Source: Paraburkholderia sp. PGU19 (GTDB lineage: Bacteria; Pseudomonadota; Gammaproteobacteria; Burkholderiales; Burkholderiaceae). Taken from it: a stretch of 64,000 bases of DNA. Numbering within the stretch: the stretch's first letter is position 1; every line of letters starts with the position of its first letter. Positions 3,214-61,562 of the stretch are shown here, one piece after another. The position numbers and the translations under genes were made by a program. The notes beneath the pieces were generated by a model, which had not been told where the DNA came from, ran no database searches, and worked only from the letters and a program-made list of their open reading frames with translations. The stretch spans positions 1,798,001 through 1,862,000 of the forward strand of contig NZ_AP023180.1 of the NCBI RefSeq assembly GCF_013426915.1, in the 5' to 3' direction.

Positions 3214-4392
3214 TCAATCGCGAAACGGCAGCCCCACGTAATTCTCCGCCAGCATCCGCGACGCCGCATCGGAATGCGCGACGTACCGCAGCTCGGCCAT
3301 CTTCAGCCGATTGACGAACGGCGTGTCGTCGAACGACGGATGCAGCATGTTTGTCATGAAATACGAGAAATGCTCGGCGCGCCAGACGCGTTCCAGACAG
3401 GTCGCAGAATAGGCGGCGAGCAGATCGTCGCGGCCTTCGCGATAGCGCGCCGCGAGCGCCTTCGACAGAATGCGCACGTCGGCGACGGCGAGGTTCATGC
3501 CTTTTGCGCCTGTCGGCGGAACGATGTGCGCGGCGTCGCCGGCTAGATAGAGGTGGCCATATTGCATCGGCTCGCACACGAAGCTGCGCATCGGCGTCAC
3601 GCCCTTCTGCGTGATGTCGCCGATGGCGGGCAGCCAGCCTTCGTCATTCTCGAAGCGCGCGTGAAGCTCGGCCCAGATGCGCTCGTCGGACCATTGCGTG
3701 AGGTCTTCGTCGGGACGGCATTGCAGGTAAAGACGCGTCACCTCCGGCGAACGCATGCTGAAGAGCGCGAAGCCGCGCTCGTGATGCGCGTAGACGAGTT
3801 CGTCGCAAGTCGGCGCGGCGTCGGCGAGGATGCCGAGCCATGCATACGGGTAGATACGTTCGAAGGTTTGCAGCGCGTCGGCGGGAATCGACTCGCGCGC
3901 GATGCCGTGAAAGCCGTCGCAGCCTGCCACATAGTCGCAGTCGATACGCTGCACTGCGCCATCGTGTGTGAACTGAACCCAAGGTTTGTCGCTCGTCAGA
4001 TCGCGCAGCGACACGTCGGACACGTCGAAATACAGCGGTTGCTGGTGCTCGACGGCAGCGGCGATCATGTCGCACACCACCTCATGCTGGCCATACACGG
4101 TGATCGCGCGGCCGCCCGTCAGCGCCGTCAGATCGATTCGATGCCGCTTGCGCCCGAACAACAGCTCGATGCCGTGATGCACCAGCCCTTCGCGCTGCAT
4201 CCGCGCACCGAGGCCGGCTTCGTTGAGCGTATCGACGGTGCCCTGTTCGAGCACGCCCGCGCGTATCCGCTGCTCGCAGTGTTCGCGCGACCGGCTTTCG
4301 AGCACCATCGATTCAACCCCTGCCAGCCTCAGCAGATGCGACAGCAGCAGACCGGCGGGACCCGCGCCAATAATGGCAACTTGAGTGCGCAT
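3214..4392 (-). CDS. pobA: 4-hydroxybenzoate 3-monooxygenase (PobA)
   Basis: FAD-dependent, NADPH-using hydroxylase that converts 4-hydroxybenzoate to protocatechuate, the substrate feeding the pca genes downstream. The 392-residue protein has the FAD dinucleotide motif GAGPAG at 9-14, the DG motif at 159-160 and the GD motif GDAAHIVPP at 285-293. Residues that line the active site in the Pseudomonas fluorescens enzyme fall at identical numbers here: Tyr201, Ser212, Arg214, Tyr222, Pro293 and Tyr385, so the substrate assignment is strong. A LysR regulator is transcribed divergently from a shared 141-nt intergenic region. Confidence 0.97.
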   Translation of the reverse strand: MRTQVAIIGAGPAGLLLSHLLRLAGVESMVLESRSREHCEQRIRAGVLEQGTVDTLNEAGLGARMQREGLVHHGIELLFGRKRHRIDLTALTGGRAITVYGQHEVVCDMIAAAVEHQQPLYFDVSDVSLRDLTSDKPWVQFTHDGAVQRIDCDYVAGCDGFHGIARESIPADALQTFERIYPYAWLGILADAAPTCDELVYAHHERGFALFSMRSPEVTRLYLQCRPDEDLTQWSDERIWAELHARFENDEGWLPAIGDITQKGVTPMRSFVCEPMQYGHLYLAGDAAHIVPPTGAKGMNLAVADVRILSKALAARYREGRDDLLAAYSATCLERVWRAEHFSYFMTNMLHPSFDDTPFVNRLKMAELRYVAHSDAASRMLAENYVGLPFRD

Positions 4393-4475
4393 CGTTCGTC
4401 TCCGAGTCTTTTGTTCGAGTCATCAAACGATTCTCGGCGCTTTCCCGAATATGCGACAACGCGATTTTTAGGATA

Positions 4476-53326: not shown

Positions 53327-54031
53327 TCAGCAGATACCGGCCTCGGCCAGGCGACGTGCGGCGTTGTACATGTGCGTTTGCGCGGCGTTGCGGGCGGCCA
53401 ATGGATCACCGGCACGGATCGCGGCGACGATTGCCGCGTGCTCGTCGCGCACCTGACGCGAGAAGTCCTCGCGCAGCGCTTCGTTGCGGCGCGTGATGAC
53501 GGTGCCGGCTTCGAGATACTGGTTGAGGAACGTGAGGGTCTTCAGGAAATACGGGTTGCCCGTCACGGTAGCGATCGTGCGATGAAACGCGACGTCTTCA
53601 GCGACACCGTCGCGGCCCTCGGAGACGGCTTCGTCGATTTTTTTGAGGACGGCGTCGATGGCCAGCATGTCGGCGTCCGTGCGGCGCATCGCAGCTTCTG
53701 CTGCGACTTCGGCTTCGATTGCGCGGCGCACTGCAAGGATGTGCAGTACCGAGCCGCCTTCCATTGCTTCTGCGTAGTCGATTCGGAGTGGGCGGATCGC
53801 GCCGTGGGCTGACACATAGACGCCACTGCCCTGACGGGGCTCGACCACGCCCTCGTTCTTCAGGCGCGAGATCGCTTCTCGGATCACTGTGCGGCTTACA
53901 CCGAATTCTTGCGAGAGCACGGCTTCTGTTGGCAGCTTGCCGCCGCGGGCGAAGGTGCCTTTGTCGATCTGCGCGAGCAGCTGTTGAGCGACGGTGTCGC
54001 TGAGCGCCCGGCTCGGGATTTTTTCGAACAT
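53327..54031 (-). CDS. GntR-family regulator (FadR/FCD) of the tetronate operon
   Basis: A 234-residue regulator with a GntR winged helix (GKLPTEAVLSQEFGVSRTVIREAISRLKNEGVVEPRQGSGVYV, residues 30-75) and an FCD effector domain. The latter shows the Asp/His metal pattern around FHRTIATVTGNPYF and DEHAAIVAAI. It lies immediately upstream of ltnD on the same strand and is the obvious local regulator, probably autoregulated as the first gene of the operon. Ligand inferred to be a tetronate or pathway intermediate. Confidence 0.9.
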   Translation of the reverse strand: MFEKIPSRALSDTVAQQLLAQIDKGTFARGGKLPTEAVLSQEFGVSRTVIREAISRLKNEGVVEPRQGSGVYVSAHGAIRPLRIDYAEAMEGGSVLHILAVRRAIEAEVAAEAAMRRTDADMLAIDAVLKKIDEAVSEGRDGVAEDVAFHRTIATVTGNPYFLKTLTFLNQYLEAGTVITRRNEALREDFSRQVRDEHAAIVAAIRAGDPLAARNAAQTHMYNAARRLAEAGIC

Positions 54032-54198
54032 ATCAGTGGATTTGCCATGTCATAGGGTCATCATACAAATTTGCCTGCGACGGGGGGTATGGGGGGAAAC
54101 CCTCAGGGGCGCGGGCGATGCCGGTCGGTGTTTTTTTGGCCTTTGCGCTGGCATTCGCGGTTCAGTCTTCTTGGCGCGGCCGGTTTGGTTTGCTTGTG

Positions 54199-54869
54199 TT
54201 TGCGCTGGCATCCGCGTTTCGTTAGCGTGCTTCACGCGTCGCCCCTGTGCGGGGCGGCACCTACTTTTCTTTGTCACCGCCGCAAAGAAAAGTAGGCAAA
54301 AGAAAGCGGCTCACACCGCCCGTTCTTGTATTTGCCTGAGGGCCCCCAACCGGTCTTGCGCTTCACACGGCAACGTCCTGTTCGCGTGTGTTGCCAACGC
54401 GCTGAATGACCGCCTCACCCACTTCAAGCACCCGAACAAGAGCTAGCGGCAGCGAATGGTTTGTGCCGCCCAGGTGGCAAACTGTGTGTAGGTTGTCGCG
54501 ACGTACACGTTAGCGCTCTTACAGGGTGAAACGCCTGCGCTATCGGTCCGAAGTGAGGCGTGTGGGGTACTATGGCCTACACACAGTTTGCCACCTGGGC
54601 GGCGGTGGAATATCTGGCACGGCATGATGCAGCGTGGGTGCGTGAAGCGGGTGATGCGCTGGCTTGGAGCGTTGGCAATGAACGCGGAACAAGCAGGTTG
54701 CCGTGTGAAGTGAGGGACCGGTTGGGGGCCCTCAGGCAGGAAGAAGAATTGGCGGTGTTAGCCGCTTTCTTTTGCCTACTTTTCTTTGCGGCGGCAAAGA
54801 AAAGTAGGTGCCGCCCCGCACAGGGGCGACGCGTGAAGCACGCTAACGCATCGCGGATGCCAGCGCAAA
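54199..54869 (+). repeat. large imperfect-palindrome intergenic element, copy 1
   Basis: The outer ends TTTGCGCTGGCATCCGCG (54199-54216) and its exact reverse complement (54852-54869) bound a 671-nt imperfect palindrome. Inner arms 54465-54492 and 54576-54603 are perfect 28-nt inverted repeats around an 83-nt centre. Each arm carries a GCCCC-TGTGC-GGGGC hairpin and a CCTACTTTTCTTTG / CAAAGAAAAGTAGG hairpin. The same element, in the same orientation and with the same asymmetric centre, occurs at 60901-61562. Short frames inside are not credible genes. No transposase is present; the origin may be a non-autonomous mobile or structured element. Confidence 0.85.
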
Positions 54870-54908
54870 AACAAAAATCCAAAAGCGACGCCAGTTACAG
54901 GCAAACCC

Positions 54909-54926
54909 AAAAGCAAAAGCAAAAGC
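54909..54926. repeat. short tandem repeat (AAAAGC)3 flanking the palindromic element
   Basis: Three AAAAGC units within a purine-rich stretch that also has AAACCC words, next to the right end of the large palindrome. The complementary strand is G/T-rich, like the flank of copy 2. Confidence 0.6.
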
Positions 54927-54960
54927 AAACCCAAACAGCGTCGCAGACAACAACCAAACC

Positions 54961-56031
54961 TTAACTCGCCATCATTTCCCGAGCCCAAACCACAGCAGCA
55001 CGAGCCGGCGCAACGCCAGTTGCCTCAACCCTCTCAGCAAGCTCAAAAACCCGCGGCGCGATCATTGCAACCTCATCCAGCACGACCTGCTTATCGGCGG
55101 AGCCGAGATACTCCCGCACGCAGCTAATAATCCCACCCGCGTTGACGAGAAAATCCGGCGCATAAAAAATCCCACGCTGATGCAGCACATCACCCTCAGC
55201 GAGCGACATCAGCTGATTATTAGCGCCACCAGCAATAACCTTAAACTGACAACCAGCCGCTACAGCCTCGGTAATCGACCCACCCAGCGCGCAAGGCGCA
55301 AACACATCAGCGTTGACGGATGCAATCCGCGCCGCATCAGCGATCTGCGCGCCAAACATCTGCTGCGCGCGCCCGGTCTTGCCTGCATCGATATCCGACA
55401 CGATCAGTTCCGCGCCCGCGCGATGCAGCCGTTCGCACAGATCCCAGCCGACCGAACCCAAACCCTGCACGGCAACCGAAATGCCTTCCAAAGTGTCACG
55501 CCCAAGCGCAACCTGCACCGCCGCCTTCAGGCCCACGAACACACCATACGCGGTGCGCGGCGACGGATTCCCGCCATACACGTCGTTGTCGCGCGGAATG
55601 CCGCTCACATACGGCGTCTCGCTCTGCACCGCGCGCATGTCGTCGGCCGTCGTGCCGACGTCTTCAGCCGTCAGATAAACGCCGCCGAGCGATTGCACGA
55701 GCCTGCCGAACGCCTTGAACAGCGCCACGCGATCCATCTGCTCCGGACGCTTCAGGATCACCGCCTTGCCGCCGCCGAACGGCAGTCCCGCGAGCGCGTT
55801 CTTGAACGCCATGCCCTGTGACAGACGCAGCGCGTCGTGATACGCCTCGTAGTCCGAGGCATACTGCCAGTAGCGGCAACCACCAAACGCAGGGCCGCGC
55901 GCAGTGCTGTACACGGCGATCACGGCTTGCAGGCCGGATTCGGCATCGCTGGCCACGACAATGCGTTCGTGGGCCGGTTCGCCGTGAAGCCCGAAAAGCG
56001 TTCCGGCAAAGTTCGTCGTCAGTCGGTCCAT
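54961..56031 (-). CDS. leucine dehydrogenase-type amino acid dehydrogenase
   Basis: NAD-dependent oxidative deaminase of the Glu/Leu/Phe/Val dehydrogenase family, 356 residues, the size of leucine dehydrogenases. The catalytic Lys is in LAGLPFGGGKAVIL, a Lys/Asp motif in YLTAEDVGTTADDM and a Rossmann motif in VAVQGLGSVGWDLCERL. It converts branched-chain amino acids to 2-oxo acids, or the reverse. A divergent Lrp/AsnC regulator 262 nt away supports an amino acid catabolic role. Phenylalanine or valine as substrate cannot be excluded. The gene ends 91 nt from palindromic element copy 1. Confidence 0.9.
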   Translation of the reverse strand: MDRLTTNFAGTLFGLHGEPAHERIVVASDAESGLQAVIAVYSTARGPAFGGCRYWQYASDYEAYHDALRLSQGMAFKNALAGLPFGGGKAVILKRPEQMDRVALFKAFGRLVQSLGGVYLTAEDVGTTADDMRAVQSETPYVSGIPRDNDVYGGNPSPRTAYGVFVGLKAAVQVALGRDTLEGISVAVQGLGSVGWDLCERLHRAGAELIVSDIDAGKTGRAQQMFGAQIADAARIASVNADVFAPCALGGSITEAVAAGCQFKVIAGGANNQLMSLAEGDVLHQRGIFYAPDFLVNAGGIISCVREYLGSADKQVVLDEVAMIAPRVFELAERVEATGVAPARAAVVWAREMMAS

Positions 56032-56264
56032 CAGTGTTCCTTCCTTGTGGGCAGGCAGTTGAGTCCGCGCGAAGCGATCGCCTCGCGCCGGCTGGCCGCT
56101 CGTCGTCCGGGTCGCGGACGCAGGCAGCGAAGTTCTCGGGACCCGCGCAAGGCAAGGTCAACCGGTGGCAAAAGTGTATTCGGTCAAATTGGGAAATTTG
56201 TGCTGTTTATCCGGTAAAAATCCGGTTCGTGGCAGAATAATCAACCATCAAAATGCCACTAAAG

Positions 56265-56279
56265 AAGACGAATCGTCTT
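56265..56279. promoter_or_regulatory. candidate Lrp-type operator
   Basis: AAGACGA, one A, TCGTCTT: a perfect 7-bp inverted repeat centred 22 nt upstream of the lrp-type start codon, in the region shared with the divergent leucine dehydrogenase gene. Autoregulation is inferred from position only. Confidence 0.4.
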
Positions 56280-56293
56280 GACTCGGAGGCCGC

Positions 56294-56752
56294 ATGAAAC
56301 TGGACGCCACTGATCAGCGCATCCTGCGCGAACTGCGCAACGACGGACGCCTTTCGAACGCGAAGCTCGCCGAACGTGTCGGCCTGTCGGCGACGCCTTG
56401 CTGGAACCGCGTGCGCGCACTCGAAGAGGCGGGTGTGATCGAAGGCTATACGGCGCTGCTCAACCAGAAAACGCTAGGCTTGCCGGATACCGTCATCATC
56501 GAAGTGAAGCTCGCGAAGCACGATGAGCGCACGCTGGACCGCTTCGGCGAAGCGCTCGCCGATCTGCCGGAAGTGGTCGAGGCATTTCTCGTGTCGGGGG
56601 AATACGACTATCTGATCAAGGTCGCGGTGGCGGGCACGGAAGGCTACGAGTCGTTTCTGCGGCGCAAGCTGTATCGCCTGCCCGGCTTTCAGGACAGCCG
56701 CTCTTTCTTCGCGCTGCGCTGCCTGAAGCGCTCGGTGTCCGTCGAGCCTTGA
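56294..56752 (+). CDS. Lrp/AsnC-family regulator
   Basis: A 152-residue regulator: N-terminal helix-turn-helix (LDATDQRILRELRNDGRLSNAKLAERVGLSATPCWNRVRALEEAGVI) followed by a RAM ligand-binding domain (VIIEVKLAKHDERTLDRFGEAL, VSGEYDYLIKVAV). The close match to BkdR/Lrp-type proteins and its divergence from leucine dehydrogenase suggest that it activates that gene in response to branched-chain amino acids. GGAGG five bases before the ATG fixes the start. It converges on the GGDEF-EAL gene 12 nt downstream. Confidence 0.92.
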   Translation: MKLDATDQRILRELRNDGRLSNAKLAERVGLSATPCWNRVRALEEAGVIEGYTALLNQKTLGLPDTVIIEVKLAKHDERTLDRFGEALADLPEVVEAFLVSGEYDYLIKVAVAGTEGYESFLRRKLYRLPGFQDSRSFFALRCLKRSVSVEP

Positions 56753-56764
56753 GCGCTGCAGCCA

Positions 56765-58702
56765 TCAGACCGCAAACGACTGCTCTTCGAACGGCATCGG
56801 CATGCCGAAGTAGAAACCCTGCATGACCGTGCAGCCAAGCCCGCGCAGCACGCTCGCCTGCGCCTCCGTCTGCACGCCTTCGGCCACACACGTCAGTTCA
56901 AGCGTGCGGCACAGATCCACGATGCTGCGCACGATGTCCTGCGCCGCCGGATCGGCGTCGATGCGGTCCAGAAAGCCTCGGTCGATCTTGATCTTGTCCA
57001 GCGGCAGCCGGTGAATGCAGGTGAGGCTCGAATAGCCCGTGCCGAAATCGTCGAGCGAAATGTGAACACCTAGCTGCTTGAACGCATCGAGCGAAGCGAA
57101 CGCCTGCTCGAAATCCTGAATGACGGCCGTCTCCGTCACTTCGAAGGTCAGGCGGTCAGGCGCGACGCCGCTCTCGTGAACGATGCCCACGATGTTCGCA
57201 ACCGCGTCCACCGAGCCGATATCGCGCGCCGACAGATTGAAGGCGACGCGCACAGCCGGATCGCACGCACGCATCGTCGCGAGCACCTTGCGCAATAGCG
57301 CCGCCGTCACGGTATGAATGAAATCGCTGCGCTCGGCGACCTTGATGAACAGCGCCGGCAGCACATCGCCGAGCGTCGGGCTGGTCCATCGCGCCAGCGC
57401 CTCGTACGACACGACATGCTCGCGCACCGTGTCGACGATAGGCTGGAAATGAAGCGTCATTTCGCGGTCGAGATCCGCATGCCGCAGCGCCTGTTCAATT
57501 TGCCCAAGCTCGCGAATCTGTTTTTCGTGCTCCGCCGAGAAGATCGTCGTGCCGCCGCGGCGATGCTCCTTAGCGAAGTACAACGCGTAATCCGCGCGCT
57601 CGAACAGTTGCGCGGGCGAGCGGCCCGCATCGGGATAGATCGCAAAGCCGAGCGATCCCGACAGCCGCGCAGTCGCACCAGGCCATGCGTATGGCGCGCG
57701 CAAAGTTTCGCAGATCGCCGCGCCGATGTCGCGCAAGTCCTGTGGCTCGCGCACGTCCGTCACCAGCAGGCCGAACTCGTCGCCGCCGAGCCGCGCAAGC
57801 TGGATCTGCGGCCCCGCAACGTCGAGCAGCCGCCGGCCGACTTCTTCGAGCACGCGGTCGCCTGCGCCGTGGCCATATAAATCGTTGACCTGCTTGAAGC
57901 CGTCGAGATCGATCACGCCGACAGCGAACCGCGCCTGCCCTGCCTGCGCCGTTTCAAAGAGCGTGTCGAGATCGGCCAGAAAGCGCCGGCGGTTCGGCAA
58001 CCCTGTGAGGATGTCGAGATTGGCAAGGCGCGAGTTTTCATCGCTCAGACGCTGCAGTTCGGCCTGCTTCGCCTGCAATGCATGCTTCGATCCAACGAGG
58101 TTCGCGAAGTCGCGGTAGTAGGTGAGCAGAATGAAGATCATCGCGACGGCGACGAGCAGCATGTTGATCGCAATCGCGACCAGCACTGCGTTATGCGTCA
58201 ACGAAAAGAACAGCGAGAACGGCGCGATGACAATCGCCGTCAGCAGCAACGCGGCCTTGCGCATGTGCATCAGGCAGAAGATGCAGCCGATCACTGTGAT
58301 CGACATGTAGAACGCGACATGTGCCCGAGCGTACGGGTCGCCATACGGAAACAGCAGCAAGCCCCAGCCGGTGAAGATGACACCCAGCAGCGCGATCAGC
58401 CATATCGTGGTCTTCAGGCGCGATGCGACCTGTTCGTCCGTCAGCGACGCGAGGTGCTTTCTTCTCCTTACCCACACGACGAGCCGGATCGCGCACGCCG
58501 TGCACATCGCGAGCGGCACCCAGATGGAGAGCCACGCCGGCGCAACGGCGACATGCGTCGCGGCCACGGCAACGCTGTTGACCACGAGAATCACATACAG
58601 CAGCGGCAATTGCCGCGAGAACGCGTCGAACTGCGAGCGTGACAGCGCGGCCTTCACGGCGGGAACAGTACGAAACGAAGCAAGGTCCTGCGGGCGAATC
58701 AT
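56765..58702 (-). CDS. membrane GGDEF-EAL protein (c-di-GMP turnover)
   Basis: A 645-residue protein with six or seven membrane segments between residues 33 and 195, then a GGDEF domain with intact GGDEF at 306-310, then an EAL domain. The EAL domain has EAL at 434-436 and the ExLT-like, DDFGTGYSSL and EGVQTEAQ motifs of active phosphodiesterases. No RxxD inhibitory site precedes GGDEF, so product inhibition of a cyclase is not expected. Both activities look possible; which dominates cannot be told from sequence. ATG at 58702 was chosen over an upstream TTG. Confidence 0.92.
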   Translation of the reverse strand: MIRPQDLASFRTVPAVKAALSRSQFDAFSRQLPLLYVILVVNSVAVAATHVAVAPAWLSIWVPLAMCTACAIRLVVWVRRRKHLASLTDEQVASRLKTTIWLIALLGVIFTGWGLLLFPYGDPYARAHVAFYMSITVIGCIFCLMHMRKAALLLTAIVIAPFSLFFSLTHNAVLVAIAINMLLVAVAMIFILLTYYRDFANLVGSKHALQAKQAELQRLSDENSRLANLDILTGLPNRRRFLADLDTLFETAQAGQARFAVGVIDLDGFKQVNDLYGHGAGDRVLEEVGRRLLDVAGPQIQLARLGGDEFGLLVTDVREPQDLRDIGAAICETLRAPYAWPGATARLSGSLGFAIYPDAGRSPAQLFERADYALYFAKEHRRGGTTIFSAEHEKQIRELGQIEQALRHADLDREMTLHFQPIVDTVREHVVSYEALARWTSPTLGDVLPALFIKVAERSDFIHTVTAALLRKVLATMRACDPAVRVAFNLSARDIGSVDAVANIVGIVHESGVAPDRLTFEVTETAVIQDFEQAFASLDAFKQLGVHISLDDFGTGYSSLTCIHRLPLDKIKIDRGFLDRIDADPAAQDIVRSIVDLCRTLELTCVAEGVQTEAQASVLRGLGCTVMQGFYFGMPMPFEEQSFAV

Positions 58703-58990
58703 GGCTCGGCAGCGTGAATGGGTCGGCAAGTCCGGGGGCGCCGCCTGTGGGTATGTCCAGGCTGCGAGAGGCGGTGGCGCTGTCGCGTTCCTGCATGTTT
58801 ACGGCAGTTTCGCGGCGAACCTGATGATACGAGACCGACTATGTTCGCCAGTAAAGAAAGCAGCGAGATGCGCCGCGCTGTCTCGACGGCGCCACACACG
58901 CTTGCGCAACACACACGCGTAATGCTCGCGAAACGCCCTTTTTTCGCAAGGCATTCGTCAGATCAATGCGTGTTGATAGCGCAGAACCTT

Positions 58991-60583
58991 TCATCCGCCT
59001 ATGACCACCGCCGCGATCTCGACGAACAGAATTTTCACGATCGTCATCGATGGAAAGATCATCGCGTAGCCGATATCGGGCCGGTCGGTCGGCGCGATGC
59101 GGTTCGCGAACGCGAGGATCGCCGGGTTACCCGTCGCGCCGCTGATCACGCCGACGGTCGCGTCGAACGGCAGGCGAAAAAGCCACAAGCAGCACGCCGC
59201 CGTGATGCACACGAGCGCAATCAGAATGACCGCGCCGTACAGCAGGAACGAGATGCCAGTAAGACCGATCGTCGCAAAGAACTTCGGTCCCGACGACAGC
59301 CCGACTTGCGCGAGAAACACAGTGAGGCCGAAATTGCGCAGCACGAGATTCGCCGAAAGCGGCATCGTCCAGACAAGTCCACCCACGCGCCGGATCTTGC
59401 CGAGATAGAGCGCGACCAGCAGCAGCGCGGCGAGCCCGAGCGACAACTTGCCGACGCCCGGTATCGGCAGCGGAATCAGGCCAACCAGCAAGCCGAGCGC
59501 CGCACCGATGCCGATCGAGATGTAGCTCAACTCCGCCGTTCCCTTGATCGAATCGCCGAACAGCTTGCGCACGGCATCGCGTTGACCGGGACCGATCAAC
59601 AGACCGACACGGTCGCCGAACTCGAGTATCAGATCGGGATTCGGCAGCATGTCGGCGTCGCCGCGACGCACGTGCGCGATCGAGCACACCATGCCATCGG
59701 GATAGCGGATATCGCGCAGCGCATGGCCGACCACGGTGCGGCTCGACGCGAACACGCGCAGATAGTCGAGGTCTTCGCGGAAACGTGTCATGCGCCCGGG
59801 GTGCAATTCGCCGAGCAGTTCGGTGGCCTTGCGCAGTTCGTCGCCATCCATCGAAGTCGCGAGCAGCACGTCGTCGGTTTGCATGACGAAATCGTCGGCG
59901 GGCAACTGGTTGTGATGCGCGCGGCGCACGGCTGCGATGCCGAGGCCCGCGGGCAGGCGCGCTTTCAGTTCGGGAAACGTTAGGCCGACGAAAGCCTGGT
60001 TGCGCAGCGCGATCTCGGCCGTCTCCATGATGTGCGCGGGCGGCGCTGCGATCTTGCGCGCCAGCGCGACGCTCAGCAGATAGAGAAACAGGATCGGCCC
60101 GGCGACGCCGAACGGATACGCAACGCTATAGCCGACGGCTGCACCTTCGCCCTTCAGCACGGCAAGCACCGCCTGCAGGCTTGCCGTGCTCGTGCCCGCG
60201 CCCGCATACAGGCCAAGCGCCTGATCGAGCTTCACGCCGAATAGCGGCCCGAGCGCAAGCGACACGAAGCCCGCGCCGATCACGCCGAGCACGGCGGCTG
60301 CGTTCGCCTTGAGTCCATCGGCGCTCGATAGTCCGGCGAAAAACTGTGCGCCGTACTGCACGCCGATGCCATAGAGAAACAGCAACAGGCCCAGCGTGCC
60401 GAGCACCGCGGGCGGCGCGGACTTCGGCGCAAAGCCGCCTATTGCCAGTCCGACGAACAGCACCGCGCCCGAGCCGAGCGCGACGCCTTTGATGCTGAAC
60501 TCGCCGATCACATAGCCCAGCGCGACGGTGAGAAACAAGGTGAGCAACGGCTGCGATTCAAGCAACGTCCGGACGGCATCCAT
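58991..60583 (-). CDS. AspT/YidE-family exchanger with TrkA-C domains
   Basis: A 530-residue inner-membrane protein: five or six N-terminal helices, a central cytoplasmic pair of TrkA-C (RCK_C) domains (about 190-360), and about five more helices. The repeated signatures GAGTSTASLQAVL and GATGNPAILAFANR are the pore-lining segments of the aspartate-alanine exchanger (AAEx) family that includes AspT, YidE and YbjL. Substrate unknown; aspartate/alanine or succinate are known for relatives. It is divergent from the two-component genes, with palindromic element copy 2 in between. Confidence 0.88.
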   Translation of the reverse strand: MDAVRTLLESQPLLTLFLTVALGYVIGEFSIKGVALGSGAVLFVGLAIGGFAPKSAPPAVLGTLGLLLFLYGIGVQYGAQFFAGLSSADGLKANAAAVLGVIGAGFVSLALGPLFGVKLDQALGLYAGAGTSTASLQAVLAVLKGEGAAVGYSVAYPFGVAGPILFLYLLSVALARKIAAPPAHIMETAEIALRNQAFVGLTFPELKARLPAGLGIAAVRRAHHNQLPADDFVMQTDDVLLATSMDGDELRKATELLGELHPGRMTRFREDLDYLRVFASSRTVVGHALRDIRYPDGMVCSIAHVRRGDADMLPNPDLILEFGDRVGLLIGPGQRDAVRKLFGDSIKGTAELSYISIGIGAALGLLVGLIPLPIPGVGKLSLGLAALLLVALYLGKIRRVGGLVWTMPLSANLVLRNFGLTVFLAQVGLSSGPKFFATIGLTGISFLLYGAVILIALVCITAACCLWLFRLPFDATVGVISGATGNPAILAFANRIAPTDRPDIGYAMIFPSMTIVKILFVEIAAVVIGG

Positions 60584-60810
60584 ATCCGCTCCCTAAGTTG
60601 TGGGTGGCGCCTGCTGTTAGCTAATGGAAGAGCATGATGCGATTGGAATGGGCGGGCGCCGCTCTGACGCTATCCGCCTATGCATTGCCAGATCAATCAT
60701 AGACGCTGTGCAGGCGCGTGGCGGGTCAAGGCAACGAGTGCCTGAGGACATTCGTGGTCTGGTTTGCGTGTTCGCTCTTGCAGTGGGTTTTGGTTTTTTT
60801 GCCTCGTTGA

Positions 60811-60834
60811 GGTTTGGGTTTGGGTTTGGGTTTG
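60811..60834. repeat. short tandem repeat (GGTTTG)4 in a G/T-rich stretch
   Basis: Four exact GGTTTG units within a strongly G/T-rich region (about 60,780-60,870) between the AspT-like gene and palindromic element copy 2. The remaining 60584-60900 interval has no gene that I can support; it must include the AspT-like promoter. Confidence 0.7.
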
Positions 60835-60900
60835 TGGCGTGGTTGGTTTGGTCTGGTTTGTTTGTGTTTTCGCTGGCATCCGCGCGACGGTGTTTGCCTC

Positions 60901-61562
60901 TGCGCTGGCATCCGCGATTTGTTAACGTGCTTCAAGCGTCGCCCCTGTGCGGGGCGGCACCTACTTTTCTTTGCCGCCGCAAAGAAAAGTAGGCAAAAGA
61001 AAGCGGCTCACACCGCCAACATTTCTTCCTGCCTGAGGGCCCCCAACCGGTCCCACACTTCACACGGCAACACGACAGTTCACGTTCGTTGCCAACGTTC
61101 TCCCTGTGCGCCTCACCCGCTTCAAGCACCCGCGCACGGGCTAGCGGCAGCGAATGGTATGTGCCGCCCAGGTGGCAAACTGTGTGTAGGTTGTCGCGAC
61201 GTGTAGGTTGGCGCTCTTACATGGTGGTATGCGTGCGCTATCGGTCCAAAGTGGGGCTTTTGTGTCTCTACGGCCTACACACAGTTTGCCACCTGGGCGG
61301 CCGTGGAATACCTGGCACGGCGTGCTGCGACGCGGGCGCGTGAAGCGGGTAATGAGCACTGCAAGAGCGCTGGCAACGAGCATGAGTCACGTGATTGCCG
61401 TGTGAGGCGTAAGAACCTTTGGGGGCCCTCAGGCAAGAACTAGCACTGGCGGTGTTAGCCGCTTTCTTTTGCCTACTTCTCCTTGCGGCGGCAAAGAAAA
61501 GTAGGTGCCGCCCCGCACAGGGGCGACGCGTGAAGCACGCTAACAAAACGCGATGCCTGCGA
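60901..61562 (+). repeat. large imperfect-palindrome intergenic element, copy 2
   Basis: Second, same-orientation copy of the element at 54199-54869, about 660 nt. The outer left end TGCGCTGGCATCCGCG and the centre CTAGCGGCAGCGAATGG... GTGCCGCCCAGGTGG are shared. A perfect 15-bp stem, CCTACTTTTCTTTGC (60960-60974), loop CGCC, GCAAAGAAAAGTAGG (60979-60993), lies in the left arm; the right-arm equivalent has two mismatches. This copy occupies the space between divergent genes (AspT-like exchanger and response regulator), so it cannot serve only as a terminator of convergent genes. Confidence 0.85.

Follow-up and report, generated by a model that had tools for sequence, protein, structure and literature searches.

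REPINs, repeats of about 100 nt, are mobilised by RAYT, and long palindromes are generally held to be unstable in standard bacterial hosts. GTAG REPs, with units of 20–40 bp, lie mainly between convergent or unidirectional open reading frames (ORFs) according to passages of PMC3733652, which also cites a reference asking whether REPs evolve by gene conversion. Insertion sequences (ISs) that target REPs are treated in part of PMC1525189 (ISRm22 of the IS4 family, ISPpu9/10, IS621 and IS1397; families IS3, IS110, IS4, IS256 and IS5), and sections of the review PMC7999016 describe long inverted repeats that stall replication forks, break and recombine, cut by SbcCD or RuvC. Here, we describe two palindromic elements of about 660 nt in a 64,000-nt stretch (the window) of contig NZ_AP023180.1 of Paraburkholderia sp. 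PGU19, together with the family to which they belong. This family comprises about 131 copies in a genome of 11.2 Mb and is a giant variant of REP-like repeats. Its properties are best explained by repeated two-ended breaks at the palindrome that are resected and then repaired ectopically, a reading to which we assign a probability of roughly 0.46 and in which the breakage is what we infer from sequence patterns. More tentatively, the genus may carry a genome-wide network of natural break hotspots, i.e. giant gene-end palindromes that would break, be resected over roughly 1 kb in both directions and be mended by copying from each other; sites would thereby be kept while sequences are rewritten, and a lasting strand-oriented mutation footprint would be left in neighbouring genes.

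The elements share several traits with GTAG-tagged REPs and BIMEs as portrayed in the passages of PMC3733652: they are high-copy intergenic palindromes in species-specific families, lie downstream of genes and serve as IS targets. The unit of 20–40 bp does not apply, as the elements span about 665 nt, contain nested hairpins and have long arms that are specific to a lineage. REPs bear an unpaired GTAG tag at one end of the palindrome; here, a GTAG word adjoins the palindrome of hairpin A (it precedes GTGCC-hairpin A) but is paired inside hairpin B. Neither conversion nor a strand footprint was found in the passages on REPs of PMC3733652. As in REPINs, two inverted repeat units form a long hairpin, but the elements lack a RAYT association and their positions are static. 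Whereas the experimental palindromes cut by SbcCD or RuvC in the sections of PMC7999016 are usually unwanted or engineered, some 130 giant natural copies persist here and stay palindromic despite the usual instability of long palindromes, in a genome without a canonical SbcD match. No literature on the family was found, nor any paper containing the element's words, in a search that did not extend to subscription literature, and text searches of PMC7186790, PMC12306157 and PMC3733652 brought up no Burkholderia repeat.

A family of palindromes at gene ends

The two window copies were originally predicted to be palindromic and to lie 6.7 kb apart. They are joined by direct repeats of 280, 158, 98 and 90 nt (84–89% identity) at a near-constant offset of 6697–6700 nt, the alignment spanning 54191–54855 and 60891–61552. 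Each copy is an imperfect inverted repeat, with complementarity of 87–89% in the outer and 75–78% in the middle parts of the arms, and copy 1 has inner arms of 28 nt that, as claimed, are perfect (100% complementary). Folding energies lie 28–35 standard deviations (s.d.) under those of 20 shuffles on either strand because the sequence is a palindrome.

A search of the whole genome with the inner arm returned 131 forward and 133 reverse matches, against 0 for the reversed control; a first look had listed 238 candidates, and the 40 that were scored all matched over the full length at no less than 87%. Closer analysis relied on 102 merged segments (729 kb), picked mostly for holding elements. These contain 86 uninterrupted elements with a median length of 667 nt; a further 69 partial matches are either end modules standing alone or one half of an interrupted copy. 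Exact matches to a word of 24 nt at the inner arm number 86 on contigs C1–C3, with none on C4 or C5. Conservation is concentrated in TGGCATCCGCG, in hairpin A GCCCCTGTGCGGGGC together with hairpin B CCTACTTTTCTTTGCCGCCGCAAAGAAAAGTAGG, in a number of short blocks and in the inner arm, as well as in the mirror image of each. Of the element ends, 156/172 are anchored, and similarity declines gradually beyond TGGCATCCGCG.

The word CCTACTTTTCTTTG...CAAAGAAAAGTAGG, named in the original prediction, is real: it has 241 exact matches in this genome and occurs in 28 of 249 sampled genomes of the taxonomic family, in 2 of 25 genera. Related genomes were searched, and the proposed dispersed, structured element was recovered there as related palindromes in congeners; together with the copy number in the genome itself, this excludes a local duplication. 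The palindromes of congeners share the A/B module and have unrelated interiors, and in the five relatives examined the main arms are 87–92% complementary. A plasmid collection gave 19 matching records, six of them with a full-length copy (three from Paraburkholderia caribensis, two from P. largidicola, one from Paraburkholderia sp.); its Burkholderia and Caballeronia records matched the outer module or parts, nothing more. At orthologous sites, elements are present in some species and absent from others. A phage origin was considered and dropped, as the phage collection gave no match.

Gene neighbourhoods were evaluated with home-made gene calls, based on codon usage for the context and on longest ORFs for the terminator-motif, fourfold-site and element-free-end analyses. 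Both neighbours were called in 113 of 115 element regions, which comprise 53 convergent, 54 tandem and 6 divergent cases, as compared to 12, 95 and 48 among those intergenic regions of 100 nt or more in these segments that lack an element. The 53:6 ratio is far from chance (binomial p = 1.8e-10), because a circle has equal numbers of convergent and divergent junctions. The convergent or unidirectional setting of GTAG REPs is thus found in 107/113 regions. Gene 3' ends are a median of 84 nt away from the element (n = 160), as against 192 nt for 5' ends (n = 66). The argument that two different contexts speak against a terminator does not stand, since the divergent setting of window copy 2 is an exception (6/113).

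Footprint in the flanks and concerted evolution of the copies

On both flanks, the strand running 5' to 3' into the element is rich in T and G, and this bias fades over about 1 kb. At the 160 flanks facing gene 3' ends, TA skew starts at 0.72 and GC skew at 0.32, and by 1.5–2.5 kb they have dropped to 0.00 and 0.02; at the 66 flanks facing 5' ends, they drop from 0.69 to 0.03 and from 0.27 to 0.01, respectively. Keto skew is seen on both flanks in 105/113 regions, on one flank in 8 and on neither in 0. At fourfold-degenerate sites, T/(T+C) climbs from about 0.25 to 0.57–0.77 toward the element in this genome and in P. caribensis, and it rises likewise in 18 loci of seven relatives whose elements have other interiors.

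Orthologous genes with and without an element allow a direct comparison. In the last 450 nt of the Glu/Leu/Phe/Val dehydrogenase (GDH) gene beside copy 1, T/(T+C) is 28/45, 25/36 and 30/42 in carriers (0.62, 0.69, 0.71) and 2/36, 5/41, 3/42 and 2/42 at four empty sites (0.06, 0.12, 0.07, 0.05). Five further loci without a match to element or hairpin gave 10/33, 15/56, 15/37, 9/50 and 6/42 (0.30, 0.27, 0.41, 0.18, 0.14), and the pooled comparison of carriers with all nine element-free loci has a nominal p of 4e-24. The FadR-type regulator gene on the other side shows 0.41 and 0.41 with the element and 0.07, 0.10, 0.12 and 0.00 without. At three element-free sites of P. phymatum STM815, T/(T+C) is lower at 4/5 gene ends, a comparison that omits the CstA rows (wrong frame), the P. 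caribensis GNAT row (which ran into an element) and site D (no counterpart in P. phymatum). Element-free 3' ends in the genome itself have no gradient (0.288 near and 0.290 far, 21 ends).

Differences between strains were followed in P. caribensis, using 60 stretches from three chromids (W01, W02 and W03) with 62 full elements. Between W01 and W03, the incoming strand shows a 2.6-fold increase in C/T differences per site toward the element, from 0.021 to 0.055, and A/G differences rise within 100 nt only. C/T differences stand to A/G differences as 385:228 within 700 nt, compared with 626:594 farther out (p = 2.9e-6, with the cut chosen after seeing the profile); the first cut tried, 200–1200 against 1200–2600 nt, gave p = 0.023.

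The sites themselves are stable. Because only element-bearing stretches were fetched, an empty site would appear as unmatched; for 57 of the 62 elements, both flanks recur in a stretch of another strain and enclose an element there, three have one flank matched and two have none. One of these two lies at a rearranged junction and the other in a region unique to its strain. A clean empty site was found for none of the five non-shared elements, the three one-flank cases not having been followed further. The left flank of the junction element (L236:2968-3635, P. caribensis MBA4) recurs without an element in two strains and two other records, where its right neighbour is a different one, and elements may mark rearrangement endpoints.

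By comparison, the sequences at these sites change rapidly. Hand-picked orthologue pairs cover 17 of 19 full W02 elements and 15 of 20 full W01 elements. The 17 W02–W03 pairs average 94.1% identity with flanks at 97.8–99.7%, and the 15 W01–W03 pairs 88.9% with flanks at 91–98%; random W01–W03 pairs (n = 150, orthologues not excluded) have a median of 88.1%. In a relative (L041), the element at window site 1 is 76% identical, compared with 88% and 90% for the two flanking genes. Recombination had been predicted for the region between the window copies and was found in another form, as inversion of the element's own centre: the orientation call is reversed in 1/17 W02–W03 and 4/15 W01–W03 pairs (5/15 by identity).

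The arms of the 86 uninterrupted copies provide a further measure. Left arms are 0.880 and right arms 0.893 identical among themselves, and left–right identity is 0.879 between copies and 0.884 within the same copy. Minor alleles of the left arm recur on the right in 77 of 105 cases (0.73, against 0.26 for randomly paired columns). Differences look clustered, and 20/63 clusters match another sampled copy exactly, a count that has no null; neither observation is taken as proof. Judged by these alignments, the arms of all copies are shown to behave as a single pool. Pairing within a copy (84.11%) exceeds pairing across copies (83.63%, s.d. 0.13) by a small margin, largest in the outer 40 nt. As the arms are pooled and within-copy pairing is barely above cross-copy pairing, the palindrome appears to be maintained at the family level via exchange among arms, not copy by copy. 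That the elements evolve by concerted evolution and not by active transposition is well supported by these comparisons of sequence, and the family is a concrete setting in which bacterial ectopic gene conversion could be measured.

Proposed break and repair, and rival explanations

We propose the following sequence of events for these observations. The palindrome would extrude a hairpin or cruciform and be cut, whereupon resection of both ends would leave the 3'-ending strand single-stranded and subject to C-to-T and, more weakly, A-to-G change. Repair from another copy would rewrite the element, flip its centre and keep the family homogeneous and palindromic, given that any arm of any copy could template any other arm. 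A two-ended break with single-stranded DNA on the 3'-ending strand fits the C/T signature, which is strand-specific, two-sided and graded by distance, and ectopic repair would explain both the concerted conversion and the centre inversions. If the skew is a resection footprint, chromosome break sites and the extent of resection could be read from sequence alone, and the repeats would influence the choice of base at synonymous sites in adjacent genes as far as a kilobase away.

Several results weigh against break and repair. The p-values are nominal, since neither related species nor adjacent codons are independent of each other. Polarised W02–W03 changes show no C>T excess near elements (200–1200 nt: C>T 20, T>C 30; 1200–2600 nt: C>T 49, T>C 16), and their substitution rate is not raised beyond 200 nt from elements. 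W01–W03 transversions per site increase, steeply so within 200 nt, from 0.0125 to 0.075 within 100 nt (0.0225 at 200–400 nt), a rise that exceeds that of C/T differences close to the element; deamination alone is thus insufficient, and error-prone repair may be the source of the added transversions. The A-to-G part of the footprint is clear at 3'-facing flanks only, and element-free 5' ends in the genome itself have a mild gradient (0.298 versus 0.193), smaller than that at elements. The footprint of window copy 2 is weak: the permease gene shows 10/56, compared with 6/57 and 7/56 in two genomes without the copy, and the regulator gene on the other side 23/66, compared with 18/61 in L041, which has the element, and 18/65–18/67 in three loci without a match. 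Conversely, the 5' end of the AspT-like permease gene is strongly skewed (22/47) in L044, a relative that is empty at site 2, the GDH gene of L049, one of the nine without an element, reaches 0.41, and PrpF does not differ in the P. phymatum comparison (24/51 versus 21/41 and 23/41). The L044 skew is possibly the scar of a lost copy, and weak copy 2, skewed L044 and unchanged PrpF may all reflect young and lost copies. As for the enzymes, no SbcD exceeded the curated cut-off in this genome, where SbcC and RecBCD were not searched, and canonical SbcD is patchy in the genus (15/144 congeners above the cut-off, one of them with 95 hairpins). The rise in transversions and the less clear values of the five additional element-free GDH genes lower our confidence, and the break-hotspot reading is considered plausible, not proven. 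Two candidate components were rejected: SbcCD as the nuclease is unsupported, with no SbcD above the cut-off, and the Chi-like motif GCTGGTGG is oriented inward (7:0, 8:2 and 8:3 by distance), but no octamer exceeds composition.

The most serious competitor, unlikely as it stands, is a bidirectional terminator or mRNA 3'-end stabiliser, a giant REP-like structure under selection at gene ends, with concerted evolution as a by-product and a skew of other cause. The preference for gene 3' ends and for the convergent and tandem settings speaks for it, and REPs likewise prefer convergent and unidirectional contexts in the passages of PMC3733652. At the GDH site, a GC-rich hairpin identified by eye replaces the element after the gene in four element-free relatives, and in element-free L042 it is followed by a T run. 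Hairpin-plus-T-tract motifs precede 65/152 elements, compared with 13/175 control 3' ends and with 40–52/152 upon composition-matched resampling; T-rich composition thus explains most of the motif, and the excess beyond composition is small. Departures from pairing are about equal for G.T (4.38%) and A.C (4.02%), so no single RNA strand is favoured for the bidirectional transcribed RNA that the original prediction offered as a candidate. An apparent G.U excess among RNAfold-derived pairs was discarded as false, since those pairs are chosen by an RNA fold, and strand-neutral pairing was used instead. Covariation reaches z of about 3 in the conserved hairpins and is absent or negative between 160 and 240 nt. 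Rfam RF02421 matches weakly at the outer end of each arm in both copies (1/4 above the gathering score), although this 113-nt model of the candidate small RNA Bp1_684, as outlined in part of PMC3521395, covers the arm end only. Moreover, this rival does not account for the skew of flanks that face 5' ends, on which the template strand is the incoming one, and transcription is disfavoured as its cause because it would follow gene orientation. The elements may nevertheless have a role as terminators or at mRNA 3' ends.

We regard as improbable that forks stall at the hairpin, exposing the lagging-strand template to deamination, with conversion via fork repair and no two-ended break. The same strand would be single-stranded on the approach side of the fork, and stalling at spaced palindromes in E. 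coli is covered in the sections of the review PMC7999016. This scheme predicts a one-sided skew per element, whereas both flanks are keto-skewed in 105/113 regions (origins not mapped).

There is still less to be said for a non-autonomous transposon (MITE or REPIN-like) mobilised in trans by a transposase, in line with the original prediction of a mobile cruciform. The roughly 131 intergenic copies and their absence at orthologous sites in some species would fit. On the time scale sampled, the shared sites in P. caribensis speak against it. One strain-specific site has an element-free counterpart to its left flank, but it is a rearranged junction and no clean insertion. Sharp borders were not seen (target duplications not scored), interiors are unrelated between lineages, and exact matches are missing from C4 and C5. 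The sole RAYT-like gene (L075, C1:3501278, 235 aa) is solitary, lies between genes and has no REP-like flanks of the element family; no element motif occurs within its 3.3 kb locus, and the same holds for two IS200-type genes. A RAYT/REPIN link was rejected on these grounds.

Least probable of all, elements might have been retained or inserted at gene ends that were already rich in T and G, as the element-free skews of L044, PrpF and L049 would allow; these could instead be traces of lost copies, and the skew has its centre at the elements and is graded on either side of them, whichever way the genes point, orthologous genes usually differ with element presence, and between-strain C/T differences are enriched near elements.

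Insertion sequences and coordinates

Several ISs occupy defined positions inside the elements. All 11 genome copies of an IS66-family element sit in the apex of hairpin B with an 8-bp duplication, and 9/10 close copies of an IS30-family element lie inside elements, eight of them at the base of hairpin B (two distant matches are outside the count). An IS4-family element has 6/8 copies in elements, five at the centre, and two elsewhere on C4; two IS5-family copies are found at the base of hairpin B. Two unclassified inserts of 1125 nt share one other site, and two further single inserts are without family assignment. Four IS families thus have set sites in one element, and it is well supported that the elements act as an IS magnet, the family being a fixed home of several IS families. 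Insertion at one fixed place of a palindromic repeat is also the behaviour of the REP-targeting ISs of PMC1525189, to whose families IS66 and IS30 are added here. In P. largidicola, an IS256-family transposase is annotated directly beside an element (L258:4326-5591).

Table 1. Palindromic elements of the window, their parts and their flanks
Feature	Position	Strand	Remarks
Copy 2 left flank	58991..60900	+	5' end of permease gene; weak footprint
Asp-Al_Ex permease gene	58991-60583	-	PF06826; T/(T+C) 10/56
GntR/FCD (FadR-type) regulator gene	53327-54031	-	PF00392, PF07729; T/(T+C) 15/37, first 450 nt
Copy 1 left flank	53327..54198	+	includes 5' end of GntR/FCD regulator gene
Palindromic element copy 1	54199..54869	+	671 nt
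Copy 1 left hairpin A GCCCCTGTGCGGGGC, outer conserved module	54241..54255	.	conserved block; common to relatives
Copy 1 left hairpin B (CCTACTTTTCTTTG...CAAAGAAAAGTAGG)	54260..54296	.	in other copies, IS66 inserts at its apex, IS30 and IS5 at its base
Copy 1 left perfect inner arm	54465..54492	+	
Copy 1 asymmetric centre GCTCTTACAG	54515..54524	.	used by IS4-family element in other copies
Copy 1 right perfect inner arm	54576..54603	-	
Copy 1 right hairpin B	54775..54808	.	
Copy 1 right hairpin A, GTAGGTGCC just before	54813..54827	.	
Copy 1 right flank, T/G-rich incoming strand	54870..56031	+	includes 3' end of dehydrogenase gene
Glu/Leu/Phe/Val dehydrogenase (GDH) gene	54961-56031	-	PF02812, PF00208; fourfold T/(T+C) 28/45, last 450 nt
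Palindromic element copy 2	60901..61562	+	662 nt
Copy 2 left hairpin A	60941..60955	.	
Copy 2 left hairpin B	60960..60993	.	
Copy 2 left inner arm	61163..61190	+	
Copy 2 asymmetric centre GCTCTTACAT	61213..61222	.	
Copy 2 right inner arm	61274..61301	-	
Copy 2 right hairpin B	61472..61505	.	left side with two substitutions

Some minor features concern the element ends and centre. A semi-conserved outer module, T(7)GTCTGCGACGCTGGG, lies outside the palindrome proper at window positions 54870-54945 and at many other copies, and often begins directly after the stop codon of the neighbouring gene. Beside an IS4-carrying copy, three extra tandem units of about 102 nt of the element end module are present (L039:5487-5804). 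In L066, from relative G081, a long GCCAAC/GCCAAT microsatellite occupies the element centre, so the asymmetric centre tolerates expansion. Lastly, a telomere-like (AAACCC)n tract of about 90 nt is located immediately outside the site 2 element of L041 (~4315-4412).

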